Shown piece by piece: positions 29,478 through 60,100 of a stretch of 64,000 nucleotides of DNA. The DNA comes from Planoprotostelium fungivorum (Eukaryota > Evosea > Variosea > Cavosteliida > Cavosteliaceae), in NCBI GenBank assembly GCA_003024175.1, contig MDYQ01000021.1, positions 269,207-333,206 on the forward strand, given 5' to 3'. The stretch's first letter is position 1, and each line of letters opens with the position of its first letter. The notes beneath the pieces were generated by a model. The model saw nothing but the letters and a program-made list of their open reading frames with translations. It had not been told where the DNA came from and did not search any database. The position numbers and the translations under genes are program-made.

Positions 29478-33712
<4,235 letters not shown>

Positions 33713-33752
33713 TAAAGAAGATGAATGTGCGATGCATCCTGCTTTATCATCA

Positions 33753-34331
33753 TTACAGGTTGGAGACGACGGTGTAGACGGAGGTACCGAGGAGTGTCAA
33801 CAGACCGATGTAGCCAAAGGCACCTTCTCAGGATCAGAGAGAAATAGAGGTATGTCTAGCGTGATGCACTCACCCTTGGTTCTCTGCTTTGGCTCTCCAG
33901 TCTGGTAGCCAGTGGCGTAGGCAACTCTTCCGGCGGTGAAGACGAATCCAGCGATGGCAGAGATGATCTGTATGTCTTCAGGATCACGATTCGAAATGGG
34001 ATCGACTTACGGGGAATGAGAGACCTCCAGCGAGGAGAAGGAATAAGAAGGTAGGTGCGGCCTCAAGAGTGTTCTGGTGAGCTCTCTGGAAGCAGTTGAA
34101 GTGGGGCTTAGAATCGTCATACATCTTGGGGTAGTCGACGCCAAACTTCTTTCTGGCTCCTCCGACCTATCTATAATTCAGGAATCATGAACGGATGGAC
34201 ACGAGCTGACCTGAACACCGAGGTATACGATGTAGAGGAGGAAGACAATGCCACTGAGAATGACCTACGAAACGTGAGTGTCTCCTTTCCATGAACTAAC
34301 TCACCAAACCGAAGTGGGGTGGGAGAGTCAT
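33753..34331 (-). CDS. MAPEG-family protein, microsomal glutathione S-transferase 3-like (spliced)
   Basis: Membrane enzyme of the ER that conjugates or reduces lipid peroxides with glutathione. It begins MTLPPHFGL, then [18 protein letters not shown] (first helix), then [20 protein letters not shown] followed by [13 protein letters not shown], the MAPEG/MGST3 signature. It continues with [46 protein letters not shown] and the last helix [17 protein letters not shown], stop at 33753-33755. Four helices and about 145 residues match MGST3. Four or five exons with short introns. It is convergent with Prp16, 40 bp apart. Confidence 0.92.
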
Positions 34332-35057
34332 GGTTGTGATGCGATAATTAGATTTAGATTTGTGTTTCACAACCGTTTTGCCCATCATCGGCCCGATCGG
34401 GAGCCACGTGTTACAAATCTCAGGTAAAAACATCGCCGATTTGTCGGTCTGCCCTCTCATCTTCAGGTGATTATCTCCTTCCTTTGATGTAATATCTTCT
34501 ACTTCGCCTTTCTAAGCCGAACCATGACGATCATGATGGTGCTGATGTGTCCTTCACGAGAAATCCATTTGGTGTGCTGTACTTGGAAGAAGTTGACTCC
34601 CCTTTCGTGCGAATCGCCCTCTGCTGACTGCGGCGAAACCTCTCGACAGCTCTGCCACGGAGAATTTCATCGCTCGCAACAATTCGCGAAGCTCGAGGGA
34701 CAACGCTCGCCAGTTTGACTGGGCATTGTCAAGCTTTCCTCCGAAAATGTCAATGAATGTGGTTTCATAGGCTGCCACAGCTTCGATGTTACCCGAACTC
34801 CCATTCTGTGGATATAGAGGCAACAGCGTCGGTGGAGGAGAGGTCATCCCATAGAGTGCGCAAGGACAACCGTCCAGAGCTGTGCTTTTGTAAACAATTA
34901 TAATGATGTGCCCTTATGGAGGGAGTTAATCGATATATCCTGCCCATAACAGTTGGTACGTTCTCAGGATGGTGATTTTTCCGGATGCTTCCACACGTTG
35001 ACACAGAGAATACGTTCCGCAGAGGTTGTCCGCCCTCACATCCATCACAACATCATC
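34332..35057. other. Intergenic region upstream of the + strand GH5-LRR receptor kinase
   Basis: 726 bp. It contains one possible small gene (listed separately, 34554-34847, minus) and should include the promoters of the MGST3-like and receptor kinase genes. No other feature could be supported. Confidence 0.4.
34554..34847 (-). CDS. Possible small protein, function unknown
   Basis: A 97-codon frame with ATG at 34847. The composition is protein-like (FGGKLDNAQSNWRALSLELR, then an amphipathic run), with no Cys and no membrane segment. No family is recognised. It might be real or chance; neighbours on both sides are unrelated. Confidence 0.3.
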   Translation of the reverse strand: MTSPPPTLLPLYPQNGSSGNIEAVAAYETTFIDIFGGKLDNAQSNWRALSLELRELLRAMKFSVAELSRGFAAVSRGRFARKGSQLLPSTAHQMDFS

Positions 35058-38000
35058 ATGTATAGACGGTCACTCCTCTGTTGGGTGATCTTCATCGCTG
35101 TCACAGCTGGCGCGTTCGATGAGACATGTCTTCAGAAGAGACTGAGCGATGTGAAAAGTCTGAAGACCCCCATGCGGGGTGTCAACTTGGGCTCTTGGTT
35201 CATCGCAGAATCATTCATGTCCCCTGAACTCTGGTCCGCCAACAACTGTGATCCTTCGTCATCACCCGGACAGTATCTCCTCGAGAGATGTCTATTTGAC
35301 CAATCACCCGATGTGAGCCATCGTCTACCACCATCACAGAATGTGACATCTTCGTAGAAGATGAATCAAACATTAGAATCACATTGGTCAACCTGGATCA
35401 ACGAGACCGATTTCGCAGTGATGGCCGCTCAGGGAATCAATACAGTAAGACTCCCCATCGGCTGGTGAGCTCTGACTACCTTCTGTTGGAAACTGATCGT
35501 CATGTCAGGTGGCAGATCTACGACACAGTGGTGAGCCCATCATTCCTTGTGAACGATGGTGATTAATCATTAACGTTCCAGGGTGGAGCCCCCAATGTCA
35601 ACCCCATGAAGGTGAATCCTTCCAATTACGCTCCCGGTGCTCTCAAATACATCGATCGGGCCTTCGATTGGGGAGACACATACGGCATCGCCATCCTCTT
35701 AGACATGCATGCGGGTGCTGGATCGCAGAATGCACAGGTCATCCGAAGACGTTTCATTTGATGTTGACTCACAACAGGAGCACAGCGCACCATCGAACAT
35801 CGGAGCGTGCTACTGGTATCCTTATAGTGACAATGTCGATCAGACGACCACATCGATCGGATTGTATACCGCCAGATATCACGATCGCTCTTCTTTCCTC
35901 GGTTTCGCCCTCTTAAATGAACCCGGTTGCCCTTCTGGCTTCAACACCGATACCCTCAGGAAGTGAGATGTCTCGTTGTAGACGATAGATCAAAATGACG
36001 ATTTCCAGTTATTATCTGAGTGCCTATACGAGCATTCGATCCATCTCGACGGACAGTCTCGTGGTGATCAGCCCCCTGACCATTCCATTGCAATACGGAA
36101 CGGAGACCGAGTGGGTCAACTTCATGAGCAACACGAGTCAGTACACGAACGTATACATGGACCTCCATTCTTACCAATGCTTCGTGAGTGATCTGATGGA
36201 TGAGGTGTGATGACATCATCACAGGGTGGAGTGGGAAATACGGACGATGAACGCATACAGAATGTCTACGATGTGAAGGCTAAGATGGTGACAGACTACA
36301 ACGCGGTGAGTCCGGTAAAATAAATTGATTCTGATTTGATATTTTTCAGGTAAACTCTAGACCTCTCATGATGGGTGAGTGGTCTCTCTGTGGTGTCTCT
36401 GCTGGTAAGGAATGGCAGCTCGCCAACGCTCAACTGCAGGTGGCTTGTCTTCTCTCACGTGGCTCGTTGTAGATGGACTGATGAGAGCAGGCATGGACAC
36501 AAGCCAAGGGAGGATGGACATACTGGAGTTGGAAGGCAGCTGGATCTGTGTGGTCTATGTCTGAGGCTTACAGACAGGGATGGTTCCAATCGAACGCGAC
36601 CGGACTACCCTCGTGCGTGGTCAATTCTGACCCAGACGCAATTTCGAGCATCTACACCTCGCCGTGGGCTTCCTCGTGTGTATTTATATTCACATGGAAT
36701 GGATCTCTGACGCGTTGTAGAACGCCAACATCTTCGGCGGTGGTGATCCCCACTATGGCAGCTACTCCATACGATTCCACTTGCACATCTCAGCGTCTAC
36801 AATCAGTCAAGAATCATTCGGCGCCAATTCGAGCTTCCTCCCTCTACGGTTGGCTCGTTGCGGATTCAACCCTCACACCCTCCCTATGGACCGACAACGG
36901 TTGTTCTACAACCAGCCAGGCCGGTGAACTACTCTTGTATGGTTGTCTGGGCAACCTCTCCTCTTTCGTCTTCTTGAAGCACTGGGGCAGTTTCGTGCAA
37001 GAATCCGATTTCCAGGAAATGTCTCGATTGGGTCTCAATTCCGTCCGAATTCCTATGGGATGGTGGTCCGTGTTCGATTCCGTGGTGAGTATTCCGATAC
37101 GTACGGTACGTACGTCTGAACTCTTCCCAGGGAGGGGGTAATTCGGCCTGTCCAGACGTGGGCGATAGGAATTATGCAGTCGGAGCCCATTACTTCCTCG
37201 GTCTGGCATTCGAGTGGGCTAAGAAGTATGACTTGGGTGTCATCTTAGACATGCACGCCCTACCAGGAGGCCAGAATGGAGGACAAGGGGCCGCCACGAG
37301 CAGCACGAATGGTAACTACTACTTCAGTCCTTACCAGTCGAACATCAACTGCATGTACAAGAGTTTGGATGCGTACATGGCCAGTTTCGGAAATCATCCG
37401 AATTTCATCGGAATTTCCGTCGTCAACGATCCCAGCCCCGGAGACTTGGACAACTACAAGATGTAATCATCATATCGAAATCTTCCATGAATTTTCTGAC
37501 ACCATCAGATATTATCAGAGGGCGTACAACATCGTCAGGAACTACAACGATCAAGTTTTCATCATCATCGATTTGCCCTCCGATCAGAATCCTACCGATC
37601 CTTACTGGATTGATTTCATGACATCGAGCTATCACCATGATGTCTGGTACAACTACCAGTTCTTCGCCTGCCAGGGACAATTCGGAAGCACGGACGACGA
37701 TACCATCGACATGGTTCTCAAGTTACAAGTCGGAAACTTGTCCAACTACAACCAGGCAGAACGGAAAAGACCTCTCGTTGTAGATGCATTCAATGCCTGC
37801 GGAGTTTCTTTCGATCGTACCGGTGACATCATGTCTGTCCTCTGGAAGGTGCTGAGGTCACGTGATCGTTGTAGATTGACAGTCAACAGGTGGTGAATCA
37901 AGCCTCAGCGGGTTGGATCTACGAATCGTGGTCTTACAATGCGTTGAGGCAGTGGTCGATGCATTCGATGTACGATTACGGTTTCATCACCATCGAAGAG

Positions 38001-41000
38001 ACGAACGTGACTCTCTGTGGATCTCCCTCTCAGCCAATTCAACCGGTCGAGGGTTGTCCAGATTGCGAAGCTCTAACAGATCTATACATGTCTGCCGGAG
38101 GTGACGGAGAGGGAAGTATGATATCGTGATGATTCGTAGGTCCTGGATGGCTTATCAAGCGAGGATGGAGTCTACCCATTCGCAACAGTTCGCAGTACTG
38201 CTCCTTCATCAATGTGGCATGTGACTCACAATCGAGAGTCATTCAGATCTACATGGCCGATAACAATATGATCGGTGGGTATCATACGGTGTGACGTCAT
38301 CTGACATCATCGTTCGTAGGTACACTTCCGGCTTCCCTGGGAAATATGACCCACCTCAGGACTTTGAATCTGATAGCGAATCTTGGACTGACAGGTTCTA
38401 TACCAGAGACGATCACCAGATTGGTCAATCTGGTCTACTTAGACCTCTCCCTGTGTTCGTAAGTATTATGCAATACATCCAATGATCTGACTCGTTGTAG
38501 ATTTACGGGGACTATTCCCATGGGTATGAGAGAATTATCTCAGTTGGAATATCTCTACCTTAACAACAACCAATTATCTGGACAGCTGCCGGATTTCGTC
38601 TACAACATGACAAAAGTGAAGGTAACATTTATACACAACGAGAAGAAGCTGAATCTATGATAGATTGTGAATCTGGCTCAGAATCTATTGAGAGGAAGTC
38701 ATCCAGAGCTGACTTACTGCATGAACCTGGTAGAGATCTATACATACGGAAATCTGTTAGATTTGTGAGATCATTCCTGAAAATCAGAATTGAGACTCTG
38801 CAGGCCGCTGCCTGATTCGATTTGTTACGCCACGAAACTCGTCATACTACAATTCCATACGAATCAGATTCCAGGAAAAATCCCGCAGTGCATCAACCAA
38901 ATGGTCCTCTTACAAACGCTCTTCGGCAGCAACAATCAGCTGAACGGTTCGGTGAATGGATCTTCATTGTGCGTGACATACTGACTTGATCAGTTCCCAG
39001 AATTGAACCTGCCTCGATTGAATACCATTTATTTGGGACAGAACATGCTGACGGGAGGCTTTCCACCGGTATCTCAGTGTTCGAGTCTCAAGATCTTGAG
39101 CATGTCCTATAATCTCTTCTCGGGTGAGCTATTCAGAGGTAGACATGTTGCTGATGCGATGGTGACAGGTCCCCTACCCCAATGGCTGGGAAACATGACG
39201 AATCTGGTCGATCTATCCATGGTGAGTTTCTTCACTTTTCGTTCCGTGCTGATCGTTGTAGACGAACAATTACTTCAACGGATCGATTCCCTATTCAATT
39301 GCAAATCTGACGAACCTGAATTTCATTCATCTCAGCAACAATCTGTTATCTGGAGGGGTCAGTAGCGGAATAACGAATTTTCACTGAGATCTCACAGGTA
39401 CCTGATTCGTTCGGTAACATGGAGCAACTGTGGGAACTCGATCTCTCCTTCAATCTTCTCGAAGGAGCTATACCACCCTCCATCTACAGCCGTCCATACA
39501 TCTCACAACTCATTCTGACGAACAATCAATTCAATGGCACACTCTCTACCTTCACCAGTGCATCCCATTTGAACACCATCATGGTAGATTCCAACCAATT
39601 TTCTGGAAATTTCCCCAGGATGAATGCACCGGCACTGTCGACCCTGTACGCCAACGACAACAACTTTACTGGTTCAGATCTCTCCTGGATGTCAAGTCTA
39701 CAGAACCTGCAATTGATCGACCTGTGAGACAGATTTGGCTCGTTGTAGAATGACATGCGACAGATCGAACAATCGATTTTCTGGATCTCTTCCCTCCCTG
39801 AGTGGATTGAATTATCTCAGCAGGTACATGCTCTGTGACTTGAGATACATACATTGATACCTCTCAGACTCGTAGTGAAGAATAATTCTCTGTCCGGAAC
39901 CTTCCCCGTGTACAGCTCCTCCCAACTCAACTATGTCGACTGCTCGAATAACCAACTGAGTGGAGACACTTTCAACCTCTTCAACAACAAGAGAGCCTTA
40001 CAGTTTGTATACATCAACGACAACACGTTCTCCGGATACATTCCACCGCAGATCGGTGCTGCCACTCTGCTTCAGGTGTTGGATGCAACGAACAATTATT
40101 TGTACGGGCCTATGCCAAATACTTTCTCCTCGCTGTACAATCTCGTCACTCTGAGGTTAGGCAGAAACAGCCTGACAGGGGTACTGCCCAACATGAACAC
40201 GTTGTACAAGTTGCAGGTGAGAGTAACATTGCATGGTAATTGAATTAAGTTTTAACAGGAATTATCGATCGATAACAATTGGCTCAGCTCGGACATGACT
40301 CAACTTACCTCCCTGACCCAATTGACGGTGATATCTCTGATATGATATCACACATTGACACGTGTACAGGCATTGGATCTATCAAACAATCCCCTCGGCT
40401 CTAGAATTCCCGCCGAAATTTCGACCCTCATCAACCTCCGATTCCTCAATTTGTCAGGTTGTGGCCTCAAGAACGAATGCCCACAAGAACTGTGGAACCT
40501 CCGCTCTCTACAATCTGTCGATCTCCATGGTAACGGTATGACCGGAACCATCTCAGACATCTCGGTGAGATTTCATTGGAATTTCTTGTCAATTGACATG
40601 ATGAACAGAGTGACCCTTCTTACTTGGACTTATCGGGTAATTTCTTCTCTGGTTCAGTGAGATGGATGAGCAAATTGGGATCGGTGAAAGAAATTTTACT
40701 CCAGGGTAACAATTTCGTGGGAAATGTACCCGACTTATCGTCCGCGAAATCTCTTGTGTATCTCAATCTGACGAGAAATTCATTGAATGGAACGTTACCC
40801 GCTCTGAGTAACTTATACCAATTGGTCACGGTGGACGTCAGGTGAGGATGTACAGTGTATGATTCAAGGATTAACGTCGACAGCTACAATAATTTCTCCG
40901 GAACCATTCCACAATTTGCCGACTCCGTTCAGGTGAGAGCTGCACACCTTCATGAAATTCCACTGAAACATCCTCAGCTCCTCGATGCATCTCACAATCA

Positions 41001-43260
41001 CTTTACTGACATCAGCACCTTCACCCTCCCTTCTTCTATCCACGACTGCAACATGCTGTCCAATTCCTTCGAGTGCCCGATCACATCAGGTCCTCGACAA
41101 TTGTGCCAAGCTACTTGTGTCACCAGTGATGTGACCAGCTCGGCTCAATTCAGCATGAGGATCGAAGGTTCTCTAGACACGTTCGATCAGAAGGCTTATT
41201 TGATCGCCCTGTCGACAGTGAGTCGACATTACGATCTTACGGTATGATGACGTCGTAGGTTTTGTCGACAGATGCGAATCGATTCAATATATTGGACACG
41301 AGGCAAGGTAGTGTCATCATTGATGGAGAGATCAGTCCACCCGATGATAAGTAATCGCGATTTCATTCTCATCGTATGCTGATACATCATTCTCAGGTCC
41401 CAATCTGGATCGGCTTCACGTTTGGTCCAACTGATGCAAACCTCTTCCACCAAAACGGCTCTCTCAGCTCTCGGCATCAATGTACTCAGTGTAGATAGTG
41501 CCATTTCCAGCGGTGAGATCTATCTTTTTATTGAATTCATTTTCCGCAGGTTCTCAAGCCAACTCGAACAATGGAGTTTCGAGAGGGGTCATCATAGGTA
41601 TCGTCGTAGGAGGAGTAGTCCTTTTAGCTCTGTTAGTGGCAGCCATCGTTACCTTGGCCTTGAAGAAGAGGTGAAGAGGAATGGGAGAGATGGAGACTGA
41701 ATGCGACAGACGTGTGACGCAGATCATGCAGCAGACGATCGATCTGGAAAATATCGATCTCGGTTCAGCCAAGCGTTCGATCGTGAGATTTCGAAGTGAG
41801 ATCTGCACATACTGACGCGTTGTAGATCGATTATGAAGAGGTGTCGGATATGAAGGTATGTTCATCTCTTCTTCGATGGATTCTGATCGAAAATTCAGGA
41901 AGTTGGATCTGGAGCCTTCGGTATCGTATTTCAAGGAACGTGGAGAGAATTAAAGGTTGCCGTGAAACAGGTGAGAGGAGAGAAGAAGGGAGAGAAGGTG
42001 ACGACGAGACAGATTCGATCAGAGCACGTGACGAGAGAGCAAGTGGAATCGTTCTTGAAGGAAGTGGCCATTCTGCAGAACCTCAGATCCCATCCTGTGA
42101 GTTGATATTTTTGATGTCACGGTATATCATCTCTGTACTCACTGGATGGATAGAATGTGGTTCTATTCATAGGTATGACGATCCCTCCTCAACCACTGAC
42201 TATGATCACGTGAGTTCACCGTCATTCCATCTTCAACTCATCGAAATTCAGCGAATTCTGCGAGGGAGGCAGTCTGTTTGATCACTTGAGGAATCACGAG
42301 GCCGATCTACCCTTGAAGATGAGTTGGATTGTGGGAATAGGTGCTGTACTCTGTCTAAAGCCAATTTTATTGACATTATACAGCTCTCGGTATGCTTCAC
42401 TTGCACAAGGAGAACGTCGTCCATCGTGATGTGAGTCGACGTGTGTGCATGTGAAGGAAGGCTGACCCTGTGCAGCTTGCCGTGAGAAACATCTTGCTGA
42501 CAAAGCATCTGGAACCGAAGGTCACAGACTTTGGCATGAGCAGAGTGACTGAGGCAGCTGAAGAGGGTGGTTCCAAGTGAGAAGTGATAGACTGAGCATA
42601 TGAGCTGACGGTCTGCAGAACGGATAATAACATCGGACCCGTCAAATGGTACACAATCTCATCTCTCTTGTCTTCTGTCATCTCTCTCTTGTCTTCTCTG
42701 TCTGACTGAGATAACAGGATGGCGCCTGAAGCTCTGAAAGAGAGAAAGTACTCGAACAAGAGTGATGTCTGGTCTTTCGGTGTTGTCATCTGGTGAGATG
42801 GCTGTACCCAGATCGTTGTAGACTGACACAGTATGCAGGGAGATCATCAATGTCGTCGAGCCGTTCCCAGATATGTCGCCTGTCGAAGCTGCAGTCGAAA
42901 TTGTCGCCCACGGTCGACGACTGGACATCCCTGACACAGACGCAAACTTGCAGATGCTCATGAGAAGTGAGTTGTTTGCGATCTGCACGAAGGATGACTG
43001 ACGGATAAACAGTTTGTTGGTCTGAACTACCAGAAGACCGTCCAAACTTTGCTCAGATCGTTCGCACTCTCACACCGTCTGATGACGATGATGATGATCT
43101 CAAGAAAGACAAGGACGATATGGAGGAAGATCCAGACCGTTACAAGATCTTCAATTTGAACCAACCGCAGGAGACGTATTCACCAGTGCCATCCATGCCT
43201 CCGCGAAATCCTGTGAGGAAACCAGAGACGAACTATTCGACTCCTTTTCCTCAGGAATAA
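35058..43260 (+). CDS. Receptor kinase with two GH5 glucanase modules, LRRs, membrane span and TKL kinase (paralogue A)
   Basis: Predicted single-pass receptor. A signal peptide ([20 protein letters not shown]) leads into GH5 module 1 (about 35160-36790), which has the exo-beta-1,3-glucanase start [20 protein letters not shown], then [10 protein letters not shown], the acid/base NEP in [11 protein letters not shown] and the nucleophile in [12 protein letters not shown]5 module 2 (about 36790-38000) keeps the fold ([25 protein letters not shown]) but has NDP for NEP and [10 protein letters not shown] for GEWS, so it is probably inactive. A plant-type LRR region follows (about 38040-41250; [11 protein letters not shown] cap, many LxxLxLxxNxLxGxxP). 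The membrane span is [20 protein letters not shown] (about 41590-41670). The kinase (about 41830-43080) has [31 protein letters not shown] and MAPEAL, so it should be active. It needs some 40 short introns. The tail ends YSTPFPQE. Confidence 0.88.
36465..36475 (+). repeat. Intron half-site CGTTGTAGATG in the GH5-LRR kinase gene
   Basis: Within an intron ending GGCTCGTTGTAGATGGACTG then ATGAGAGCAG. The same sequence, in the same orientation relative to transcription, is found at the equivalent intron of the minus-strand paralogue (about 51761-51775). It places the half-site directly upstream of a CTGAT/CTGAC branch-like site. Confidence 0.7.
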
Positions 43261-44865: not shown

Positions 44866-47800
44866 TTATCCAATGGGAGCATACTGGCTAACCTCTTGTT
44901 CTACATTGGTGTAGATAGAAGGGTGGCTGCGATCGTCTACGCTCTCGACGTCTACAGGATCATCTATGGTGAACCTGTTCTTCAGCAACTCCTCATCCAC
45001 ATCAGAGACCAACGAGTTGCCAACCGTGAAGGATCGGACGATCTGGGCGAAGTTGGGCCTGTCTTCTGGTAGCTCGGACCAACAGACTGTCACACCATCA
45101 GAAACCATTCCTAGCTGATCATGACAGAGACAACTCACTTCTCATGAGCATCTGCAAGTTTGCGTCTGTGTCAGGGATGTCCAGTCGTTTTCCGTGAGCG
45201 ACGATGGCGACTGCAGCTTCGACGGGTGATAAGTCAGGGAACGGCTCGATGACGTTGATGATCTCCCTGCACACTGTGTCAGTCTACAACGACATCTGTA
45301 CAGCCATCTCACCAGATGACAACACCGAAAGACCAGACGTCACTCTTGTTCGAGTACTTTCTCTCTTTCAGAGCTTCAGGCGCCATCCTGTTATCTTAGT
45401 CAGACAGAGAAGACAAGAGAGAGATGACAGAATATAAGAGAGATGAGATTGTGTACCATTTGACGGGTCCGATGTTTGTGTTGGTCCTGCACATCTGTCA
45501 GCGATGCTATTCTACGATTGATCTCATCTCACTTGGAACCACCCTCCTCAGCTGCCTCAGTCACTCTGCTCATGCCAAAGTCTGTGACCTTCGGTTCCAG
45601 ATGCTTTGTCAGCAAGATGTTTCTCACGGCAAGCTGCTCAGGGTCAGCCTTCCTGCCCATCCACACACATCGACTCACATCACGATGGACGACGTTCTCT
45701 TTGTGCAAGTGAAGCATACCGAGAGCTGTCACTACATCAATCCCCGTTCACGGCCGACTTTTTTGTCTCACCGATGCCATTGCACCAGCCGATCTTCATG
45801 TTGATGTCACAAGTGTTCTGTCTCAGATATTCAAACAGACCTCCTCCCTCGCAGAATTCACTGGGCGAGTCAATCTACAACTCGACGCGTATCAACTCAC
45901 GTGATCATAGTCAGTGGTTGAGGAGGGATCGTCAGACCTATGAATAGAACCACGTTCTACACCTCACGTCAGCACAGATATCACATGAAGATATCGAGAA
46001 GATAGACTCACAGGATGGGATCTGAGGTTCTGCAGAATAGCCACTTCCTTCAAGAACGATTCCACTTGCTCTCTCGTCACGTGCTCTGATCGAATCTGTC
46101 TCATCATCACCTTCTCTCCTTCTTCTCTTCTCTCACCTGTTTCACGGCGACATTCAGCTCTCTCCATGTGCCCTTGAATACGATACCGAAGGCTCCAGAT
46201 CCGATTTCCTGTAAATGATCAGTTCACTTACGTCTCAGTGGCTCTCACCTTCATGTCAGAGATCTCAGCGTAGTCGATCTACAACGCGTCAGATGATATG
46301 TTTAAGGCGATCATATCTCACGATCGATTTCTTTGCGGCTCCCAGGTCGACGTTGTCCAAGTCGATGGTCTGATGCATGACCTGCATGATGTGCCTGTGG
46401 AGTGTCATTCCAATGGAATATCAAATGTCTCTTCACCTCTTTCTAAAGGCTAAAGCGACGATAGCTCCGATGAGAATGAGCACCAATAGAGTTCCTCCAA
46501 TGGAAACTCCGATGATAACTCCCTTCGAAACTCCGGAGCTGGGCTGGATCTGAGACGGGACAGTTTCCACTACGAGATTCAGCTCATCTACATCGTTGTA
46601 GATGAACTCACCAGCACTGGTCGTGGCTGGAATGTAATCCGTGAAGTTGAGAACGGATACACCATACTGTGACAGAGAAGTCTGAGTGGTAGGCTGGTTC
46701 AACAAATCCAGCAGTCTAGGTGCAGATCCAGCATCCGATCTGAAGAGTCGATGAGTTCCACGCGAAATTTCACGCTCACCCGTCCGCGGGGGGAGAGATA
46801 GTACCATCGATGATGACACTACCCTCTCTCACTTGTAAGATCTGGAATCGTTTGATGTCAGCCGACAGAACCTGATGACGTCAGCGAGACATCACACAAT
46901 ATCTCCCTCACGGTAGATATCGCGATGAGGTAAGCGGTCTCGTTCCAGGTTGCCAGAGTACCGTTGATTCTCATTCTGTACTGCGACGTGATGTTGACAT
47001 CTGTTGTAGTACAAGTCGCGTTACAGCGAGAGCGAGAGGATAGAGGTACTGGACATTCAAAGGAATTGGACTGCATGTCACAAGCGGAGACGAGAGAGGG
47101 AAGAGAGAACTTGCTGACATCACTGAAGTGGTTGTGGGAGATGTTCAAGTGCTGTCGACATATCAATGGAGTTTCTCATAGTCGACGCACCTGGACCGAT
47201 GCGGAGAACTGTGGAACGGCACCGGAGAATCCGTTGGAGCTGTACACATTAGCATGACATCCATCTACAACGAGTCACCTCAGATCTACGCTAGACAGCT
47301 GAAAGAGACCCGATACAGATGAAGAAGAGATAGTTCCCGTCAATTGATTACCGGCAAAGTTGATGTACCGCGCAGATTTGAATGACGACAGATCCGGCAG
47401 ATCTCCTTGGAATCGATTTCCCTGCAGACTCAAATACTGAATGGCTCCCAGTTTGAGCATCCATTGAGTCGATCCATTGAACGAGTTGCCAGTCAGATCG
47501 ATGTACGTGGGATCACTCTGAGATAGATGTCAGATCCATCAGATCGATCTCTCGAGTGTCACCAGGATGTCAGGGATCTGTCCAGACAGAGTGTTGCCAC
47601 GGAGATCCAGGGACATCATCGATCGAATGTTCCACAGTTGTGGTGGGCAGTCATCGTGGAGACCACATCCGGATAAATTGAGATATTTGAGGTTGAGAAG
47701 GTTCACAATGGACGAGGGGATGCTGGAGTTGAGAGGGTTGTTCGATAAATCCAACGACTATAAAGATGTTACATTCGAGTCTATGTCTATCACTCACTGT

Positions 47801-50800
47801 CAGCTGAGTGAGAGAAGTGAGTTGGGCCAAGTTCGACACCAGACGATTATTGTTGATGCTCAAATCCTTCATCACGTCAATCCAATGCAAGTACGATTGC
47901 GATTCTCACTTGTAGGTTGATGAGACTACTCATATCCGGTAAAGCTCCCTGGAAGTTGTTCCCGCCCAATCGGAGGACATTCAGACTGTACATGGAAGAG
48001 ATAGAAGAAGGGACCTCTCCGAACATGTCGTTGTTCGTGGCATCAAAGATCTGCAGATAAGTACAGCCAGAGATCTGGGGAGGAAGGAAACCACTGAAGC
48101 GATTGTTGTTGAGATAGACCCTCTGCAAGGCCTTTGCTCCATCAACCCCAATCAGAGTGGACAGATCTCCGCTGAATTGATTGTGAGAGACATCCACGTA
48201 GTTCAATTGTAAGGAATTATAGTTAGGAAAGCTGCCCGAGAAAGAGTTATTCCTCAGGACCAATCTGATCTGCATCAACCCATCGATCGTACCTGATGAC
48301 TCACCTGCTGATGGAAGAAGAGGATATGGAATCAATACGACCGGAGAAGAAATTGTCTGATCTGATTGTACGTCAATTGGATCGACTCGCGACCTCCACT
48401 CACAACTCGAGGAGCTGAAGATAAGGAAGCTGTCCCAAAAATTTCCAATCAGAACCGGTGAAGCTGTTATTGCTTGCATACATGGCCAACAGTTTGGGAG
48501 TAACGGGTGGCATAAACTGTCCGGACAATCGGTTGTTATTGATCTGCAATACCAGAAGCTGGGAATTGTTGAAGACTGAAATAGAGCCACTCAAATGATT
48601 GTCGTTGAGGATAATCTTTGTGACCAATGGGATCGTGTAGACAGACGACGGAATCCTCCCAGTCAGAAGGTTGAACGATAGATCAAGGGTGAAGAGGATT
48701 GTCATTCCAGAGAAGACATCGGGAATCTATAGAGTTGAGTCACGCCAGTGGTGAATGATGGCATACCTGACCGGTCAATAAGTTGTTGGCAAGGTTCATG
48801 GATTGTAGACTGGTAAGCTGATTCAGAGACTGGGGAATCGTTCCATTAAAATAGTTGTTGTTCTGCAATCGAATGAGGACGACGTCATAGTGAATCCTCA
48901 CCATGGTAAGATCGACCAGAGTCGTCATGTTACCCACCCAACTTGGAATGGGTCCTGTCATCCTGTTAGAATCGTCTCTGTTCCTCACGACATCTCACCG
49001 TGGAAGAAATTGAATGCCATGCTCAGAGTTTGCAAGTTGACGAGTCCATAGACGGGTGGGAAAGGACCAGAGAACAAGTTCTGTCCCAGATAGATCCTGG
49101 TCAATTGTACCGCGTTGAGCTCTGGGATCTACATCGAGTCAGTCCGCTCCCTGTCGTCGAGACATGTCACCTCTCCCGTCAGCTTGTTGTTACTTCCGAA
49201 GACGGTCTGCATCTTGGGCATGTACCACAAGCAAGCTGGAATCGTTCCGGGAATCGCGTTGGTGTGAAATTGAAAATCACTCAATTGAGTGGCCAGACAG
49301 ATGGATTCAGAAAGGGGCCTGATGGAGTCGTCAGTTTGGATCATCACAGTGTCGACTCACTCGTCCAGCAGGTTCGAGAAGACCCACATGGTGCGTAGAT
49401 TGTAGCAGTGGGTCACGTTTGGAACGGCTCCCGTGAGACGGTTTTTGTACAAGTTGATCGCCTGCACGTGTAAGCTCGATCTCATCTCCCGCTCTCACCT
49501 CTAATTTCGTCATGTTGTAGATGAAATCTGGAATCTTTCCGGAGAGTTGATTGCTGTTCAGATTCAATTCTTTGATGTCCGACATGCCCGATAAGGCCAT
49601 TGGAATGGAGCCTGTACAGGGTGAGATATCGTGCATCGTGATGAACATCACCTGACAGTTCATTGTTGTTGAGATACACATATTGTACATTTTTCATGGC
49701 ACCGAAACCACTGGGAATGCTTCCGGTGAAGCTGAAGATGTGTCAGCTGCCATCTCACACCCTACTCTCACCCGTTGTTGGACAAGTCGACGTAAAGCAT
49801 GTTGACCAGTTTGGAAACCGAAGAAGGGATGCTTCCAGTCAGCTCAAAGTTCTGCACGATGGTCAACAGGGTCAGATGGGTCATGTCTCCAAAGGACTCC
49901 GACAGACTACCTGTTCGAGTGACGTCAGATGACATCATCACGATGATTCGAAACTCACCGATGAGGTTGTTGCCGTAGAAAGAGATGGACAAGACTCGAC
50001 CGTAACGATCGCAGATGACGTTCGAGAAGGAGCAGTACTGAGCGCTGTTGGTGATGGGCAAGCTCCATCCCAAACTGTCGGTCCACTGTGGGCCTATGAC
50101 GTCATCAGTCGTCGTCCGGAGTTTCGGAGATGTTCACCTCCGGTCAGGGTGTAGAGATCAGTCAGAGCGTTACAGTCTGGACATCCCGTGTCAGGTACGA
50201 CAGTTACCGTAGAAACAGGGCATAGGGTGATGTCTGTCTGAGCTGGGGTGATGGAGCCGAAATCGAACATGCTCTGCATCGAATTTTGACTCTTGTTGGA
50301 GTAAGGCCAGTAGTCGAACGACCATCCTCCCTTGGCCAGTCTCGCCACCTACGATCTGTCAATCTACATCGATGTAGATCGAACTCACCGATAGGGACGC
50401 ATTGATGACCTGGGCCGTATGATCGAGAGATACTCCACAGCCACCCCATCCATCGATGAAGAGAGGTCGATTGGGCGCTACACTGTTGTAGTACGCCACG
50501 TTTCCGATCAGCTTATTGGCGATGGTGTAGATCTTGTCGTCGTCGGTCAGGGCCGAATCCAAGAGGCAGGCATCGATCTGATAGTTGAACCAGATGTTGT
50601 AGTAAGAGGGTCCGGTCATTAAGTTGATCCAGTTGGGGTCGGCGACACTCTGATCCGAGGGGATGTCAATGACGACGAAGGAGTCGTTACTGTATTTTCT
50701 GACGATGCCGTACGCTGCCTGATAGTACCTGATAGATTCAGAAGAGTTGTAACATCTCCTCCTCACTGGATGTAGTTGTTCAGGTTGGCATTCGCGCCGT

Positions 50801-53191
50801 CGGGGTTATCAATGACGGAGATTCCGATGAAATTCGGGTGACTTCCGTATTTGTACATGTAGGATTCGAGTGAATGGGTCATACAGTAGATGTTGGATTC
50901 GTAAGGGCTGAAGTAGTACGCTCCGATATTGGGAGAAGAAGCTCCTTCTCCTGCGTTCTGACCACCAGGTGCAGCGTGCATGTCGAGGATGATGCCCAAG
51001 TCCCATTTCTCGGCCCAGCGGAAAGCCAGATCGAGATAGTGGAGAGATCCTTGAGAGAAAGTGGAAGGATTGACTCCGGGGCATCCACCCATACCACCAC
51101 CCTGGAGAATCGTTGGGACATTACGTACCGTACGCTGCGTGACTCACATTGGAATCGAAGATGTTCCACCATCCGAGAGGGATTCGAACGGAATTGAGAC
51201 CGAGCATGGCCATCTTCTCAAAGTCCGACTCGTCTACAAATTGGGCCCAATGTCTCTGGAAAACTCCGTCGGCCTTATTACCCAGGCATTTCTGCAGGAG
51301 CCAGGTTCCGGGGGCAGCTGAGGGGGTGCAGTTGTTTTCGGTCCATAATTCGGGGGTGAGGGTGGAATCTACAACGAACCAACCGTAGAGGGAGGAGGCT
51401 CGGACGGGAACGGAATAATTCTTGACGGATTGTAGACGCTGAGAAGAGCAGGAGGCTTCAGGTACGTACTGTAGGGTGGCAGATGTTGTTGGTACAGGGG
51501 TTGATGTTGGTGTTCTGTGCATGTCAATGGAAGAATCAAATCGAGAGACGAGATGAAATGACTTACACAGAAGACCATGGCGAGGTGTAGATGCTCGAGA
51601 TGGCGAATGGGTCGTCGCTGATGACGCACGAGGGTAGTCCGGTAGCATTCGATTGGAACCATCCCTGTCTGTAGCCCTCGGACATAGACCACGCAGATCC
51701 AGCTGCCTTCCAACTCCAGTATGTCCATCCTCCCTTGGCTTGTGTCCATGCCTGCTCTCGTCAGTCCATCTACAACGAGCCGCGTGAAGACGGGTCACAC
51801 CTGCAGTTGAGCGTTGGCGAGCTGCCATTCCTTACCAGCAGAGACACCGCAGAGAGACCACTCTCCGATCATGAGGGGCTTGGGATTCACCTGTGACGTC
51901 AGTGCCAATCTACAATGAGCCAATCACCTTGTTGTAGTCGGTGACGAACTTGGCCTTGACGTCGTAGACGTTCTGGATCTTCTCGTCATCCGTGCCTCCC
52001 ACTCCACCCTGTATGACGTCATCACACGTCACACCAATTTCAACTCACAAAGCATTGGTAAGAGTGGAGGTCCATATATACATATTTGTACTGGTTGGTA
52101 TCGCTCATGAAATTGGGCCAAGGGTCCTCTCCACCGGTCTGAATGGGTATAGTCATGGGACTGATCACCACGAGACAAGTGCTGCAATACTTTCGAATCA
52201 CACCGTAGGTGAGTTGGTAGTATCTACAACGCGTCGGTCGAGATCGCCACACTTGAATCGTTCTCACTGTTCGATGTAATTCAGCTGGTTGCCGTAGTCT
52301 GAAGGAGAGAGATTGGGACATCCAGGCTCGTTCAGAATCGCAAAGCCGAGGAAAGCTGGCTGGTTGGAGTAGCGAGAGGTGTAAGCCTCCACAGAGTCCT
52401 TCGCCTGAAATAGATTCGACAGGTATCGGGTGAGATCGCACGCGTTGGCGTAAGGAGGGGCACTGTGAGGCTGAAGGGAGGTTAAATTTGACACGCTCAA
52501 TTCGACTGACCTGGGCGTTCTGAGACCCAGGTGCGGCGTGGAGGTCCAATAAGATGGAGATTCCATATTGAGCTCCCCACTGGAAAGCCAAGTCGATGTA
52601 TTTGAGGGCTCCAGGGGCGTAATTGTTGGGATTTACGCTTAAACCAGCACTCGCGGCACCACCCTGAGATGTAAATCAGAGCGTGTTCATTTCAAGGCGG
52701 ACTTCGAGTCTTTACCTTTGTGTCGTAGATCTGCCACCTGAGTGAGAGTCAGCCATTGAGAGATCGGATGTTGGAATGATTTGAGATGGACTCACCAACC
52801 GATGGGAAGTCTGACCGTATTGATGCCCTGGGCGGCCATAGTGGCGAAGTCGGTCTCATTGATCCAAGTCGACCAATGCTGTTCCAGTGTCTGGTTCATC
52901 TTCTATTCATAGCCTTTAGAATTGTGAATTTCGTGGCGAAGAGCTCACCCCGGGCGTTTGGTCGAGACAGCGCTCGAGAAGATACTGTCCTTGAGCTACG
53001 GAGGGGTCACAGTTGTTGTCAGTCCACAGGTGTGGCACCATGTAGTATTCTGCGACGAACCACGACCCGAGATTAACACCACGCATGGGGGTGACTAAGT
53101 TCTTTACATCGCTCAGTCTCTGCTGAAGACACGTCTGGTTCAGCTGAGCTGCAACCAGAGCCAGAAGCGAGAGGAAGAGGGCACCTCTCAT
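44866..53191 (-). CDS. Receptor kinase with two GH5 glucanase modules, LRRs, membrane span and TKL kinase (paralogue B)
   Basis: Inverted, convergent paralogue of the + strand receptor, with the same domain order. Signal peptide MRGALFLSLLALVAAQLNQT. GH5 module 1 (about 53100-51480) starts [20 protein letters not shown] and has NEP (FAILNEPGCPN) and GEWS ([11 protein letters not shown]). GH5 module 2 (about 51430-50230) has IDNP and FIDGWGGCGV in place of the two catalytic motifs. LRRs span about 50170-46880 with an N-terminal CPDCNALTDLY cap. The membrane span is VIIGVSIGGTLLVLILIGAI (about 46440-46520). Kinase (about 46270-45000): AFGIVFKG-type loop, [14 protein letters not shown] and [13 protein letters not shown]. 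The tail differs from paralogue A and ends EQEVSQYAPIG. The kinase exons and introns are almost identical to A, whereas LRRs are clearly diverged. Confidence 0.87.
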
Positions 53192-54168: not shown

Positions 54169-57100
54169 ATGAGCGATAATGGGATTGCCTTAGTCCGACA
54201 GCAGCCGGTGTTCATGTTTGCTGTAGCATGTGTCCTCCTCGCACTCATTGTCGTCTACATCGTCTTTTATTCATCCATCACAATCGGTCTATTGGTCACC
54301 CGAGTGGTAGCTCTATTTTCACCGGAGGGAACGTACATAAAAATTGGTGAGGGACATCAAATGGAATACCGTGATGATGACAACTTTTATGTAGGTGCTC
54401 TGAGCATCAACATTTTCAGTGGGAGGATTTCCTTCGGAGACGTAAAATTTGCCACGAAAGACTATGAGATTCGTGTTATCGATTGTGTGGTGATGGTCAA
54501 ATGGTGGCTGACAGGGAAGAGACCGAAATCACAGCACGCCAACCCTGGTAAATGATCCATTCCATCACATCATCGTTTATCAATCAAATCGATCGGCATT
54601 GGCAAGGACAGCGTGATTGACTGAACTCAGCCGAGAGTCGCATGTTCATACAGATTTATGGATTGGAATATCTAGTCTATAACAACAGCTCCAAATACGA
54701 TCACATTCGAGAACTTCTGAGAAAGAGACAAGAGAATCCAACTGCGGTAGAAGACGATGTCATCCTGCAACAACTTTTACCTTCAGTCGATGCATATCAA
54801 ACCTCCTTCTATTATCAAATCTTCCCCACAACCAAGATACAGGTGTGATCCCCTCCTATTCACCCCCTTTTCCCGCCAACGTTTTCGACGTAAACTCCTC
54901 GTATTCACCCACGAAATTTCAGATACGCAAGGGTTGCGCCTACATCGGTAACCCTTACCTCCCCTGCATGGTGGTACTCACACTACAACGAGCCACAATC
55001 ATCCACTCGATCGGACCCGCCACCTTTGTAGAAGACGATTATTATCAATCCCTCTACGAAATCGACTGCAAGAGAGTCGTGGGCTTCATCGCTTCAAATC
55101 CAGACTACAACGGACAAGAACTGAAAGTAGAGAGGACCGTCAAGATCCGAGAAGAGTGAGATCCCACTACAACCCGCCACTCCTGACCCACCCCAGCGTC
55201 GTACAGTACGCCTTCGAAGCCTTCCGAACCTTCTACCAGGATTTACGTCTGGCCATGATCAACCCCGACGAGCAGTTTGCCGATTCTTCCTACATACCCC
55301 GACGCACACGAGACGATCAAGAGTGGCACGGTCTCGGTCGCTATCGAAACACGAAGGGGGATCATCAGGCCTACCACCACTTTGCCATCTTCCCTACAGT
55401 ACACGTCACCTTCATCTCCGACGTGGCAGGGCCCATTCAGAGTGCCCGCTATCGCTTCAATCCCAATACGAGTCCCAAATATCACGTCATACTGTCTTGT
55501 GGTGAATCGAGGAAGAAGGGAATCGATTCAGGAGACGAACCAACTCTGTATTACGGACCTTGGATCAATCGACACCGCGGGATCATTCAGGGATTTTTCT
55601 TCCCGCCAGATTATCAGAACGCCGCACAGCCGGACCTCTCCCAGGGGAAACCTCGACCTTACGCCTTCCTGGAAATCGACTTGAAATTTCCAGAGGGTCT
55701 CAAAGTCGTCCTACCCTTTCAGTCCATGGAGGCGGGAAATGTCACGGAGAACTACAATTTCACGATGACGTGTCAGGAGGCCACGATCCACTACAAGCAG
55801 CCACAATTTCGTTTCGGTAACGAGAAGGACTACCAGAGCAAGATCGACATCGTCACGACGAGTTGTGAGATGACGAGTGATCTCATGGACTTTGAGAAAC
55901 CTTTCCTGGTGGCCAACCACTTCCAGGTGAAATTTCAGTCGAACCGAAACGAGACGTCTCGTCGACGTCGACATGAAATTTCGCTCAAATGTCGCAGATG
56001 GGGTGTGCACTACAACACTCTACTACGTGGAACGGAACGGTGGATTGGAGGTTCAGCCTCGATTTCGATGGCATCCGTCTCTTCATCGTCAACCGTTACT
56101 TCTCTCTCTTCAAATTTTTATCACAAGATTGGACGGCGGGAAATGTACCTCCCGACTTGGCCTACTTCATTCCCATACGTTACTTCTTTGACATCCGTTT
56201 TGGAAAGTTCGAACTCCTCTTCAACGTGAACGAGAGGAACCTGACGACCGAGCTGAACGATCTGGAGTCGAACGGTGAGATTTCCCGCCGAAATCGGATT
56301 TTGAATTTCGAACAGCGCATTACATATTGGGAGGAACTGGGCTGAAGGCGACGGTCTTGTTACCGTTTGAGAGGTACAGATCACTGAGAACCGACATCTC
56401 GTTCGACATTCGGGCCACAAACGTCCGGGCCAGATTGAGACTCCCCCAGGGGAACTCCGTCCACAAGCACTACCACGGTGAGTCCCAAATCGATCTCCCG
56501 CCGTTGACCCATCCAGTCCCCCCACCCCCTCCATCTACAACCCTCGATTGGACGCCCACTCAGGGTATCGATTTCATTACCACGGAAACGCTGTCCTTCA
56601 ACGGCACTTACTCTTATTCGACACAAAAGATCGGCAACGTGATGGATTCTCTCAAGTTGTACGTATCGACCGGGATATCTAGCATCTGTCTCCATGGTTT
56701 CTTCATCCCTTACCTCTTGTTTCTCAAGGACAATTATTTCGGACAATGTACGGCACTGAGAGGTGTGGGAAGGAAGGTAACCAGGGCGACATCGGGAGAG
56801 AGTTCGGTGAAAATCGACATCAAATCTCCGGAGATCATGCTGTTATCACCCGGTGCGTATACGTACATTACGTCGGTACGTACGATTGATGACGTCGTAG
56901 ATGTGATGCGATCACCGGACTTGGCTCAGTCGAGAGCCGAGGCACCGCAATCAGAGAACAACGAATTCGAAGTTTATCTCTGTTACGAGTTGCAAGAGTG
57001 TACGATGGTCCTGCCCACCGAATTGTACAATCGAGATCGATGTGAATCGATCCAATTGTCCGCGTGCGTAATCGAGTTACGTAACGTTCCCAAATTCATG

Positions 57101-60100
57101 GGTGAGTGATCACATAGAGAAATTTCGCTGAGATCTATAGATCTATTCGTGAAGATGGAGATGATGTACCTGAAGAATGAGACTCCCATGGGCCCCATCT
57201 TTACAAAGTACGCACAGCGTAACCCACTCAACGTAGATGGAATCACATTACGCATGCACTCCATGTACGGTCCCATGCCCACGAAGAATACGTACAGTAC
57301 GCATTTTGACATCATTATCGGAGACATCATCGGTCACGCCACGTATGATCACCTCATGAATTTATGTGAGTTTTCCACGAGATCTCTGTGACTTCTCTGA
57401 TATTCAACAGCCTCGTGGGCATCCAATTTCGGATATCAGAAATCGAATGCAGACGACAGAGTCATAGAAAAGTTACCTCCACAATTTGATCCGTGTCTCG
57501 ATATCACCGACGTAACCATACGTAAAGTCATCGTCTCTATATGGGTAACCTCTGCCCACGAAATTTCACTGACATCTCACAGAACGAAACGAGCGTGTCG
57601 GAGATACGCTTGGAAAACGGTCTCGTCTACAACTCGACCGCTCTCGCCTGTGAATCTCACGATCAGAAATCAAATGTAGAGATCCCCTCTTTCCTCTTCC
57701 AGCAACTCATGACTCGAAATCCTCAATCGGGCAGTGACAGACAGTGGTACCAGATCGCACGTGTCGACACGTCGGTCCACATGTCGACCACGGAAAAAAA
57801 GTCGGACGGCTCCATGGTCAAACAGTTGGAATTTCTCGTCACGGAAGATGCGAACGAGAGGAGATTGGGATTCCTGTGGGAGGATGGGGAGCCCGGTACG
57901 TACGCGTAACGTAACATGTCCCTGATGTTCCCAGAACCCGATATCATCTCCACCGATGACACACTTACGGATTCCAAGGAAGAAGATCCTCCTTCAGAAG
58001 AAGAGGTTCCAGCCTCCCCTGAACCTAGATCCGCTCGTGTCAGTCGACAGAACAGTAGTCGACATTCCTTACGATCAGCCCTCACAAACAGCGACAACAC
58101 CCTCTTCACGGCGAACGACCTCACTGACGATTCCGCCTACGCGACCGCCGACGAAGACAACAACAGCACGGACGAGGACATGGACATCGACGACAACTTT
58201 AGAGCGTCGGACGCTTACTCCTTCTTACAACCCAAGGCCAGGGAGGGAGATCAAGACCCCCGATCGATACTGCAGGAGATGCTGCGGGCTTATGTCATCG
58301 GTAGTGATATGAAGAATCCGATGGCAGGGCCCATCTTTCGTGATTCAAAGAGAGTCTTCTTCGAGGAGGAAAACGAAAAGGTGGAGCAGAAGAGTTCCTT
58401 CTTGGACATCACGGGGAAGCCCAGGCCCATTCTGAATGGGAAGAAGATGAGAACGGAAGAGAAGAGGGGAGCGTGGAAGGTGACGTGGCGTGACGTCATC
58501 GGGAGAGCTGACGCGTTGTAGATCAAGGAGAACGAGAAGGGGACGGACAAGAAGTGTGTCGTCGTGGACGTGACGAGGACTCTGGATGTCTTGATCACTC
58601 CTTACTTTTTAACGTCTCTCACCTCCATCGTACAAGTCGTCACGAAAAAGGTGAGCACCATCTACAACGCTGTAGATCGCTCAATCTCCCAGTCACCCAC
58701 GTTTTCCGCCGCCCTCGACGGTCTACAACGTGCATCCGCGAATTACGTTCAGAATCTACACACGACACCTTATTCATCGAGCGACATCTGTGTTTCAATT
58801 TCCGACATCCAATTGAGCATGGTCAACGGATGTGGTAGACCACACTGGGTCAACCAATTCGAGGTAGAGCGAGAAGTGTCAGAGTGACATCTGACACGTG
58901 ACAGACACCCGCTCCATTGTCCGAATCCGTTAAGACTGTCGTGTCCATCCGTGATGTCATCGCAGTTTACCACGGGAAGTACGCTTACGCATCTTCCCTT
59001 CTCATGAACCCACGCGATCGTGCCGCAGCTACCAGCAACAGCGAGCTCGTGGAGGCTACCGGCAGCCTCAGCGTGTCTAAATTCAGCCTCCAGACTTTCG
59101 ATCTGAAGGATGCCGCCGGATTAGACGTATCCGTTTCCATGGAGAAGCCTCTCATCTCCATGACAGTAGAGGCCGTGGAGGTGGCATCGCAGAGCAGTGA
59201 GTCACGTGACTGTCTCATTCGATTGAGACTGATTCCGGAAAAAGACAGGAAGGGTGACGTGATGAATGGAGGTGGATTGTTGGAAATTCGCAAAGTCCAA
59301 TTGGACATGGATGGAAGGTCCATGCACATGTTCCCACACGTTACGATGCCTTGGATCAAAGGCTGCATGGATCTAACGAAGGTGATGACGTCATCACAGA
59401 ATGTTCCCCGGAAATTCTCTGACATTTCCAGATGGTCGGTGAAGCGTCACAGCGACAGCAGGAGTGGTTCCGATCGGAGGTGACAATCGACGATCTACAA
59501 CGCTCATTTCCCACAGATTCTCCACACGCTATCCAGCACGACGAACCCCGACGTACCTGACACATTGTCCAACAATTTACAATCCCTCCACCTCAGCACC
59601 GAATTGGGTGAAGGGAATCTCACTTATCCATCCTACAAGTCCAGAATACACTGGCGTGACATATCTGTCATCCGTCAGTGCTGTCAGTATAGAAGGGGTG
59701 AAGTCACGGCCGTACAATACGAAGGGAAGGCTCCCAGCGCAGTTCTGATGGACAGCGTGAAGCAGAGCCGAATTCAACCTCTCAGCTCTTGTCTGTCGGG
59801 AAACAGCACCATCTTGTCTACTTTCCAGAGCACAAAGGAGAAGAAGAAGAAGGGAGGTGTCGAATTCGATTGGAGGTTCAAATTGGGAAGCCTCTCTTTC
59901 AATTCAGATTACGTGCACGATATCGCCAGGGTGAGTTTCGACCGTCTACAACGGTCGTATCATTCTATTTTTAGCTCGAGATCGGTGGAGCTGCCATGGA
60001 CGGTCACGCTTACTACCGTGAAGACATCAGGGAGAGGCTGCCCGCCATCACGCTGCCATCGAAGAGTCTGAGAAAAGTCACGGATGACGTCACACCTTCC

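Follow-up and report, generated by a model that had tools for sequence, protein, structure and literature searches.

The genome of Planoprotostelium fungivorum raises the question of how two glucanase-like modules, an LRR array and a protein kinase come to lie in one reading frame, and what such a protein would do. The locus lies in a 64,000-nucleotide stretch of DNA that was analysed as a whole (the window). A first-pass annotation had read positions 35058..43260 as a chain of in-frame exons encoding a signal peptide, two GH5 modules, LRRs, a membrane span and a kinase, and this chain recurred in hand-built, deposited and spliced-alignment models.

Gene structure and the paralogous family

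Gene A (35058..43260, plus strand; deposited as PROFUN_01643) contains a 44-exon coding sequence of 6309 nt including the stop, interrupted by 43 introns of 37-69 nt and free of internal stops, which encodes a 2102-aa protein of the order GH5-GH5-LRR-TM-kinase. The exons of genes A and B were set by hand with the paralogue as a guide. Protein-guided spliced alignment using gene B alone returned the identical gene A protein in 44 exons, minus 8 N-terminal and 23 C-terminal residues, and the three kinds of model were concordant except at the ends. The deposited protein (P0003) equals the hand model save for the first residues, where the hand model yields a signal peptide and the deposited model uses a different first exon. 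The 18-aa signal peptide (35058..35111, plus strand), called from hydropathy rather than with a dedicated signal-peptide program, aligns with the N-terminus of the gene B product. The domain joins fall within exons: exon 10 (36721-37084, plus strand) covers the linker together with the beginning of GH5 module 2, and exon 13 (37890..38100, plus strand) continues from the end of module 2 into the LRR N-cap (CPDC), with the frame held through every exon.

The remainder of gene A, all on the plus strand, has the general layout of an LRR receptor kinase, with a signal peptide, extracellular LRRs, a single span and a cytosolic kinase predicted from sequence on one polypeptide. The LRR region (38049..41085; aa 818-1605) comprises some 27 repeats, each about 24 aa long, and a cysteine cap; of the 28 motif starts, two overlap. 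It is followed by a membrane-proximal extracellular domain (41092..41569; aa 1608-1725), which recurs in L045, a further LRR kinase from this genome, and for which Pfam and PDB gave no convincing match (best E values of 0.029, in one of eight members, and 0.74). The single transmembrane helix (41585..41662; aa 1731-1756) has a mean Kyte-Doolittle value of 3.18 and is, besides the signal peptide, the sole stretch above 1.6. On a contig that gave no GH5 match, one LRR kinase shares its membrane-proximal domain, span and kinase with the family, which suggests the kind of chassis onto which GH5 heads were added.

The kinase domain (41847..43071; aa 1791-2040) carries the motifs GSGAFG, VAVK, HRDLAVRN and DFG and matches PF07714 with an E value of 2.2e-73. 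The kinase Lys, Asn and DFG-Asp were present in all ten models of the family and the HRD-Asp in nine; in the tenth (L031), the last was read directly from the DNA. The kinase has its key residues and looks active, as the first-pass annotation had suggested. Its assignment to the TKL group is plausible; PF07714 fits TKL and tyrosine kinases alike, and the scores against PDB kinases overlap (CTR1, 168.3 bits; EphB1, 165.5 bits; ITK, 164.4 bits; EGFR, 135.0 bits per domain). The HRDLAVRN loop is of a tyrosine-kinase-like form.

Gene B (44866..53191, minus strand; deposited as P0001) is a tail-to-tail paralogue of gene A, with 45 exons, an open frame throughout and a 2130-aa product of the same domain order. 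Eight further loci with this order were found in the genome outside the window, giving a family of at least ten, and the depositors' own gene models unite the same domains. The earlier argument that a paralogue in the same order pointed to a real architecture is thus strengthened by eight additional copies. Some deposited models in the family contain errors: two tandem genes are merged in P0130, and the HRD stretch is missing from P0002 and P0004. GH5 genes without LRRs or a kinase are also present in the genome. The protein is probably a single-pass receptor kinase, one of at least ten paralogues, in which a GH5 tandem stands outside the cell on an LRR receptor-kinase chassis.

Catalytic residues and divergence of the GH5 modules

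Catalytic columns were scored on a joint alignment of both modules and control enzymes. GH5 module 1 of gene A (35115..36649, plus strand; aa 20-410) contains the full catalytic set (R116, H171, N227, E228, H295, Y297, E337 and W371), and the set is likewise intact in gene B, so that module 1 of both genes has the acid/base Glu, the nucleophile Glu and the six other scored active-site residues of GH5. Module 2 of gene A (36800..37982, plus strand; aa about 446-795) is a pseudo-glucanase in which the acid/base Glu is replaced by Asp640 (37428-37430) and the nucleophile Glu by Ala744, and which retains four of the eight active-site residues scored. The corresponding residues in gene B are Asn and Gly. 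Across the family, the acid/base Glu of module 2 was absent from all ten copies and present in all 16 control enzymes; the nucleophile Glu was gone from six copies, including genes A and B, and retained in four. Judged by these two residues, module 2 lacks the signature of a GH5 exo-1,3-beta-glucanase and, on sequence, none of its ten copies can be an ordinary GH5 enzyme; module 2 may have residual or altered chemistry, and its glycan cleft appears to be kept.

The nearest solved structures for both gene B modules are named exo-1,3-beta-glucanases or glucan 1,3-beta-glucosidases. Module 1 matched a glucan 1,3-beta-glucosidase (E value of 3.3e-35; residues 22-343 of 417 aligned), and module 2 matched 8Z2W (E value of 1.2e-23); the latter alignment spans residues 13-233 of 370, and the call at the nucleophile column therefore rests on the joint alignment. 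The description of the ectodomain as two exo-1,3-beta-glucanase modules accordingly holds for the fold family but fails for module 2 of gene A as an enzyme, both of its catalytic Glu residues being absent.

Module 1 was also variable. Both catalytic Glu residues were found in only five of the ten copies, genes A and B among them, whereas four copies have lost a catalytic Glu and one is truncated. The first-pass annotation had proposed that the protein digests glucan and presents the product to its own LRRs; together with the universal acid/base loss in module 2, these losses mean that digestion cannot be the reason that the whole family is kept, and the proposal does not stand as a general mechanism. 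Module 1 of both window genes does have the entire catalytic set.

In the tree, the module 2 sequences formed one clade (100/99), and losses of catalytic Glu residues sat on several branches. In non-saturated pairs, dN/dS was well below 1 for both GH5 modules: values for the L033/L039 pair were 0.10 (module 1), 0.096 (module 2), 0.078 (LRR) and 0.057 (kinase), and those for the A/B pair were 0.15 (module 1), 0.28 (module 2) and 0.17 (kinase). The faster evolution of module 2 relative to module 1 in the A/B pair could reflect relaxed constraint. The kinase is the best-conserved part of the protein, with a mean identity of 73.8% versus 47.0% for module 1.

Possible roles of the receptor

Because a residue required for cleavage is missing from module 2 in all copies, the proteins look like receptors that sense sugars of the glucan type, for example those in fungal walls. 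The best reading, to which we give somewhat more credence than doubt, is that the ectodomain was recruited from glucanases and that the whole would be a glycan receptor. Module 2, along with module 1 where a catalytic Glu has been lost, would hold beta-glucan or a related beta-glycan uncut; the LRR arch and the membrane-proximal domain would couple this holding to dimerisation or a change of shape, and the kinase would then phosphorylate targets for feeding, uptake or secretion. An intact module 1, as in genes A and B, may in addition shorten the chain or terminate signalling. Alternatively, the ligand could be a protein or one of the amoeba's own glycans.

An alternative along the lines of the first-pass proposal, which we consider unlikely, is that module 1 cleaves beta-1,3-glucan of the prey and that the released oligosaccharide is detected by the LRR or by module 2. 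A complete set of catalytic residues in module 1 of half of the copies, both window genes included, and the dN/dS of 0.15 for module 1 in the A/B pair are consistent with such a role, but the losses and the truncation in the other copies imply that cutting is dispensable in half of the family, and glucan binding by the LRR is conjectural. Also unlikely is a role in development, with the GH5 heads sensing glucan or cellulose in the wall of the amoeba's own stalk, spores or cysts in the manner of a cell-wall-integrity kinase. Protostelids form walled resting and fruiting stages. Plant receptor kinases offer a parallel in sensing fragments of their own wall, as CORK1 does with cello-oligomers (PMC9563578, PMC10970632). 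Against this, the GH5 genes without LRRs or a kinase fit digestion of foreign glucan, and the amoeba feeds on fungi: fungus-eating is described for Protostelium aurantium (PMC7251208) and also in PMC11237637, where var. fungivorum carries PROFUN locus tags, in agreement with the setting first suggested for this locus.

A more elaborate form of the glycan receptor reading, which we offer as speculation and think improbable, is a repertoire for fungal walls that both cuts and reads, in which, on a single polypeptide, the active module exposes or trims beta-1,3-glucan, its dead twin captures it and the kinase reports, so that ten paralogues would discriminate among prey like an immune receptor repertoire in a protist. 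This idea leans on the varied on/off states of module 1 and on ectodomains that diverge faster than the conserved kinase. It is very improbable that the protein chiefly anchors a digestive glucanase on the surface through which the cell feeds, with the kinase playing no essential part; module 1 of genes A and B looks catalytically complete, but the kinase is the most conserved part and keeps its key residues, and catalytic Glu residues were lost repeatedly. Least credible is a misjoin of neighbouring genes or a gene-prediction artefact, for while the models rest on sequence and flawed deposited models occur in the family, ten loci sharing one order, exon-internal joins, an unbroken frame and concordant models speak strongly against such a chimera.

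Comparison with known receptors and enzymes

Prey recognition by unicellular predators is poorly known, and the family supplies candidate pattern receptors built from digestive enzymes, in natural sets of intact and broken modules that allow enzyme loss to be compared with receptor function. According to PMC7251208, C-type lectins that resemble the melanin receptor MelLec in structure have not been recorded in Amoebozoa. The combination of GH5, LRR and kinase was not found in any other organism in a set of 5.8 billion proteins, searched with limited sensitivity: the whole-family profile search scored the 8000 candidates sharing most words and missed P0004 and P0008, both of which a single-protein search found, and distant fusions could escape likewise. 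Nor was the same fusion found in the titles or abstract starts of the open-access literature searched.

The solved GH5 exo-1,3-beta-glucanases (1CZ1, 1EQP, 1H4P and 8Z2W), the first three of which come from Candida and Saccharomyces, align with the modules of gene B and share their catalytic set with module 1 of genes A and B. They are free enzymes, whereas in the family the two modules are attached to LRRs, a span and a kinase, and catalytic Glu is missing from module 2. Among receptors, Arabidopsis CORK1, an LRR-malectin receptor kinase needed for responses to cello-oligomers (PMC9563578), likewise bears another extracellular domain on an LRR receptor kinase, but that domain is malectin instead of an enzyme-derived GH5 tandem.

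The nearest precedents are plant GH18 receptor kinases and animal Klotho. Tobacco CHRK1 resembles the family in carrying a glycoside-hydrolase-family ectodomain on a receptor kinase, and 91 plant sequences join a GH18 domain to a kinase (PMC5485988). The CHRK1 type belongs to plants rather than Amoebozoa and has a GH18 part that is taken as enzymatically active, and the portion of PMC5485988 considered here describes neither an LRR array nor a tandem of glycoside hydrolase domains. Pfam assigns GH5, and no GH18, to the family. In animal Klotho, a co-receptor without a kinase of its own, tandem glycosidase-derived domains also serve a receptor; these are GH1 and come without LRRs, whereas the family has GH5 and a kinase. 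The tandem inactive GH1-like repeats of alpha- and beta-Klotho bind sugar-mimicking motifs within a receptor complex (PMC7828330). GH5 thus joins GH18 in plants and GH1 in animal Klotho among the glycosidase families met here in receptors.

Gene structure and domain order

Gene A (35058-43260, forward strand; deposited as PROFUN_01643, the PROFUN locus tags being used for Protostelium aurantium var. fungivorum [PMC11237637]) lies in a Planoprotostelium fungivorum assembly of 471 contigs and 36.86 Mb. It comprises 44 exons separated by 43 introns of 37-69 nt and encodes 2102 residues without an internal stop. The protein contains, in order, a signal peptide (judged by hydropathy), GH5 modules 1 and 2, an LRR region of about 27 repeats with a cysteine cap, a membrane-proximal domain, a single transmembrane (TM) helix, and a kinase; Pfam E-values were 2.2e-73 for PF07714, 1.7e-29 for GH5 (two stretches), and 3.8e-33 for LRR_1. 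The paralogue of matching order noticed in the first-pass annotation is gene B (53191-44866, reverse strand), which lies tail to tail with gene A and encodes 2130 amino acids in 45 exons. The deposited model of gene B, P0001, carries three inserted segments of translated intron sequence.

Spliced alignment with the paralogue protein as sole guide recovered the gene A protein in 44 exons, missing 8 N-terminal and 23 C-terminal residues, and the deposited model is identical to our own save at the extreme N terminus. Two domain borders fall within exons: module 2 begins within exon 10, which also encodes the linker, and ends within exon 13, where the LRR cap begins. Agreement among the paralogue-guided alignment, the deposited model, the exon-internal joins, and the recurring domain order indicates that gene A is one gene. 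The first-pass annotation had proposed a real architecture and not misjoined genes, and this holds, given the exon-internal joins and the repetition of the order in gene B and eight other loci.

Elsewhere in the window are genes for a predicted protein of about 1000 amino acids with long internal repeats (FNFTLPDCGDAYGPDLS, LPVCTGDFGPS; 8863-13588, forward strand), a putative DEAH-box, Prp16-like RNA helicase (29478-34627, forward strand), and a putative bridge-type lipid transfer protein of about 2300 amino acids (54968-63904, forward strand).

Extent of the receptor family

A six-frame genome search (104 of 137 candidates scored) gave 139 exon-level GH5 matches across 21 contigs, and 16 stretches from 12 of these were read in addition to the window's contig. 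Half of the stretches (L029-L033, L036, L037, and L039) contained the GH5-GH5-LRR-TM-kinase order, which was absent from the other eight. Among the latter, L038 and L040-L044 had GH5 alone within the sequence read, and L034 and L035, overlapping stretches of one contig, had GH5 genes with an unrelated kinase kilobases away. The family thus has at least 10 members (genes A and B and eight loci), a lower bound because the survey covered the window's contig and 12 others of the 21. At about 3000-9100 of L035, a forced model gave a receptor-like protein with beta-helix-like repeats and a membrane span. Its kinase, perhaps a pseudokinase, departs from the usual catalytic loop (HKELSAEN, SGFG), and as modeled this protein is outside the family.

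Several deposited models depart from the family structure. Tandem genes L036 and L037 on contig C90 are deposited as a single 4329-amino-acid protein (P0130), the first having a truncated GH5 module 1, the only such case among the 10 members. P0002 and P0004 omit the kinase HRD stretch, and P0006 (3021 amino acids) bears an RNase_T domain that perhaps belongs to a neighboring gene.

Residues 1 to 820 of gene B had nine matches among 7816 candidates of fitting length: eight P. fungivorum proteins in which GH5, LRR, and kinase are combined, and a protein from Hibiscus whose domains are GH5 and helicase. A profile built on those eight matched 48 of 8000 candidates scored, including seven P. fungivorum proteins with GH5, LRR, and kinase (P0130 among them); for the other 41, GH5 was listed for one, with no kinase listed for it. 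Both searches depend on shared five-residue words and may have passed over distant relatives; the family has so far been seen in one species.

Conserved kinases and altered GH5 modules

Conservation within the receptors is highest in the kinase, which has a mean pairwise identity of 73.8%, compared with 47.0% for module 1, 43.8% for the LRRs, and 41.6% for module 2. The kinase Lys, Asn, and DFG Asp are present in all 10 models and the HRD Asp in 9; the tenth, L031, has VIHRD in the DNA, and its deposited guide likewise lacks the HRD stretch. Scores against CTR1, EphB1, and ITK differ by less than 4 bits, which does not separate TKL from tyrosine kinases.

The 10 copies of each module were aligned with 16 control GH5 proteins chosen from 120 listed (7 P. 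fungivorum, 1 EukProt, 2 Acrasis, 2 rotifer, and 4 fungal), all of which retain the acid/base and nucleophile Glu. No module 2 has the acid/base Glu, which is replaced by Asp, Asn, Ser, Arg, Gly, or Ala, and only four (L033, L036, L037, and L039) keep the nucleophile; module 2 is therefore not expected to act as an ordinary GH5 enzyme in any copy found. Both residues persist in 5 of 10 module 1 copies (A, B, L031, L037, and L039); the nucleophile is gone in L029 and L030 and the acid/base residue in L032 and L033, these losses being scattered on the tree.

All module 2 sequences form one clade (support, 100/99), and with this single origin the tandem probably predates the family's expansion. 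Module 1, with that of L036 left out, forms one side of a weakly supported branch (69/87). Because module 2 joins five free enzymes (87/89) and not module 1, the two may have been recruited separately instead of arising by internal duplication. The top-scoring place of a further search, which lies on contig C200, encodes an LRR receptor kinase with a family-type membrane-proximal domain, span, and kinase; the 7.5 kb read has LRRs continuing toward its edge, and the six-frame search (104 of 137 candidates scored) gave no GH5 match on this contig. A GH5 tandem would have been fused to the front of a receptor of this type.

Six pairs were compared for dN/dS, three of them with at least one dS-saturated region, and the measured values were all below 1 (maximum of 0.51, truncated L036 module 1 versus L037). 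They were 0.10 (module 1), 0.096 (module 2), 0.078 (LRR), and 0.057 (kinase) for L033/L039 and 0.15, 0.28, and 0.17 (modules 1 and 2 and kinase) for genes A and B. Between A and B, dS is 0.39 in the kinase (41847-43071 in A, about 46.2-45.0 kb in B) and about 1.4 in both modules; among the 13 final intron pairs, four share 89 to 96% identity (the others, 54 to 77%). The low kinase dS and the closely matching introns suggest that the inverted pair has undergone gene conversion. A comparable dS contrast is seen in L036/L037 and L029/L030.

Function and relation to known receptors

The first-pass annotation envisaged a receptor that digests glucan and passes the product to its LRRs. Cutting does not survive as the common function because module 2 lacks the means of a normal GH5 enzyme in every copy found and half the copies have an impaired or truncated module 1, although module 1, being complete in genes A and B, may permit a cutting step there. 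An enzyme-derived glycan-binding receptor fits better: the GH5-derived ectodomain would bind glycan, and dimerization would then lead to signaling through the receptor. Glycan-binding pseudoglycosidases are established (PMC7828330). The prey of Protostelium aurantium includes yeasts, hyphae, and swollen conidia (PMC7251208), and the mannoprotein-rich surface of Candida albicans gives some protection against initial recognition (PMC11237637).

No report of a GH5-LRR-kinase fusion was found in the open-access literature, judged by titles and the starts of abstracts. Within that literature, the new elements are an enzyme-headed receptor kinase with GH5, a glycosidase family not found in such a role, a glycosidase tandem with one broken module, and the LRR stalk. 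Receptor kinases with glycosidase heads are already known from plants, where GH18, taken as active, is joined to kinases (PMC5485988); the P. fungivorum receptors carry GH5 instead.
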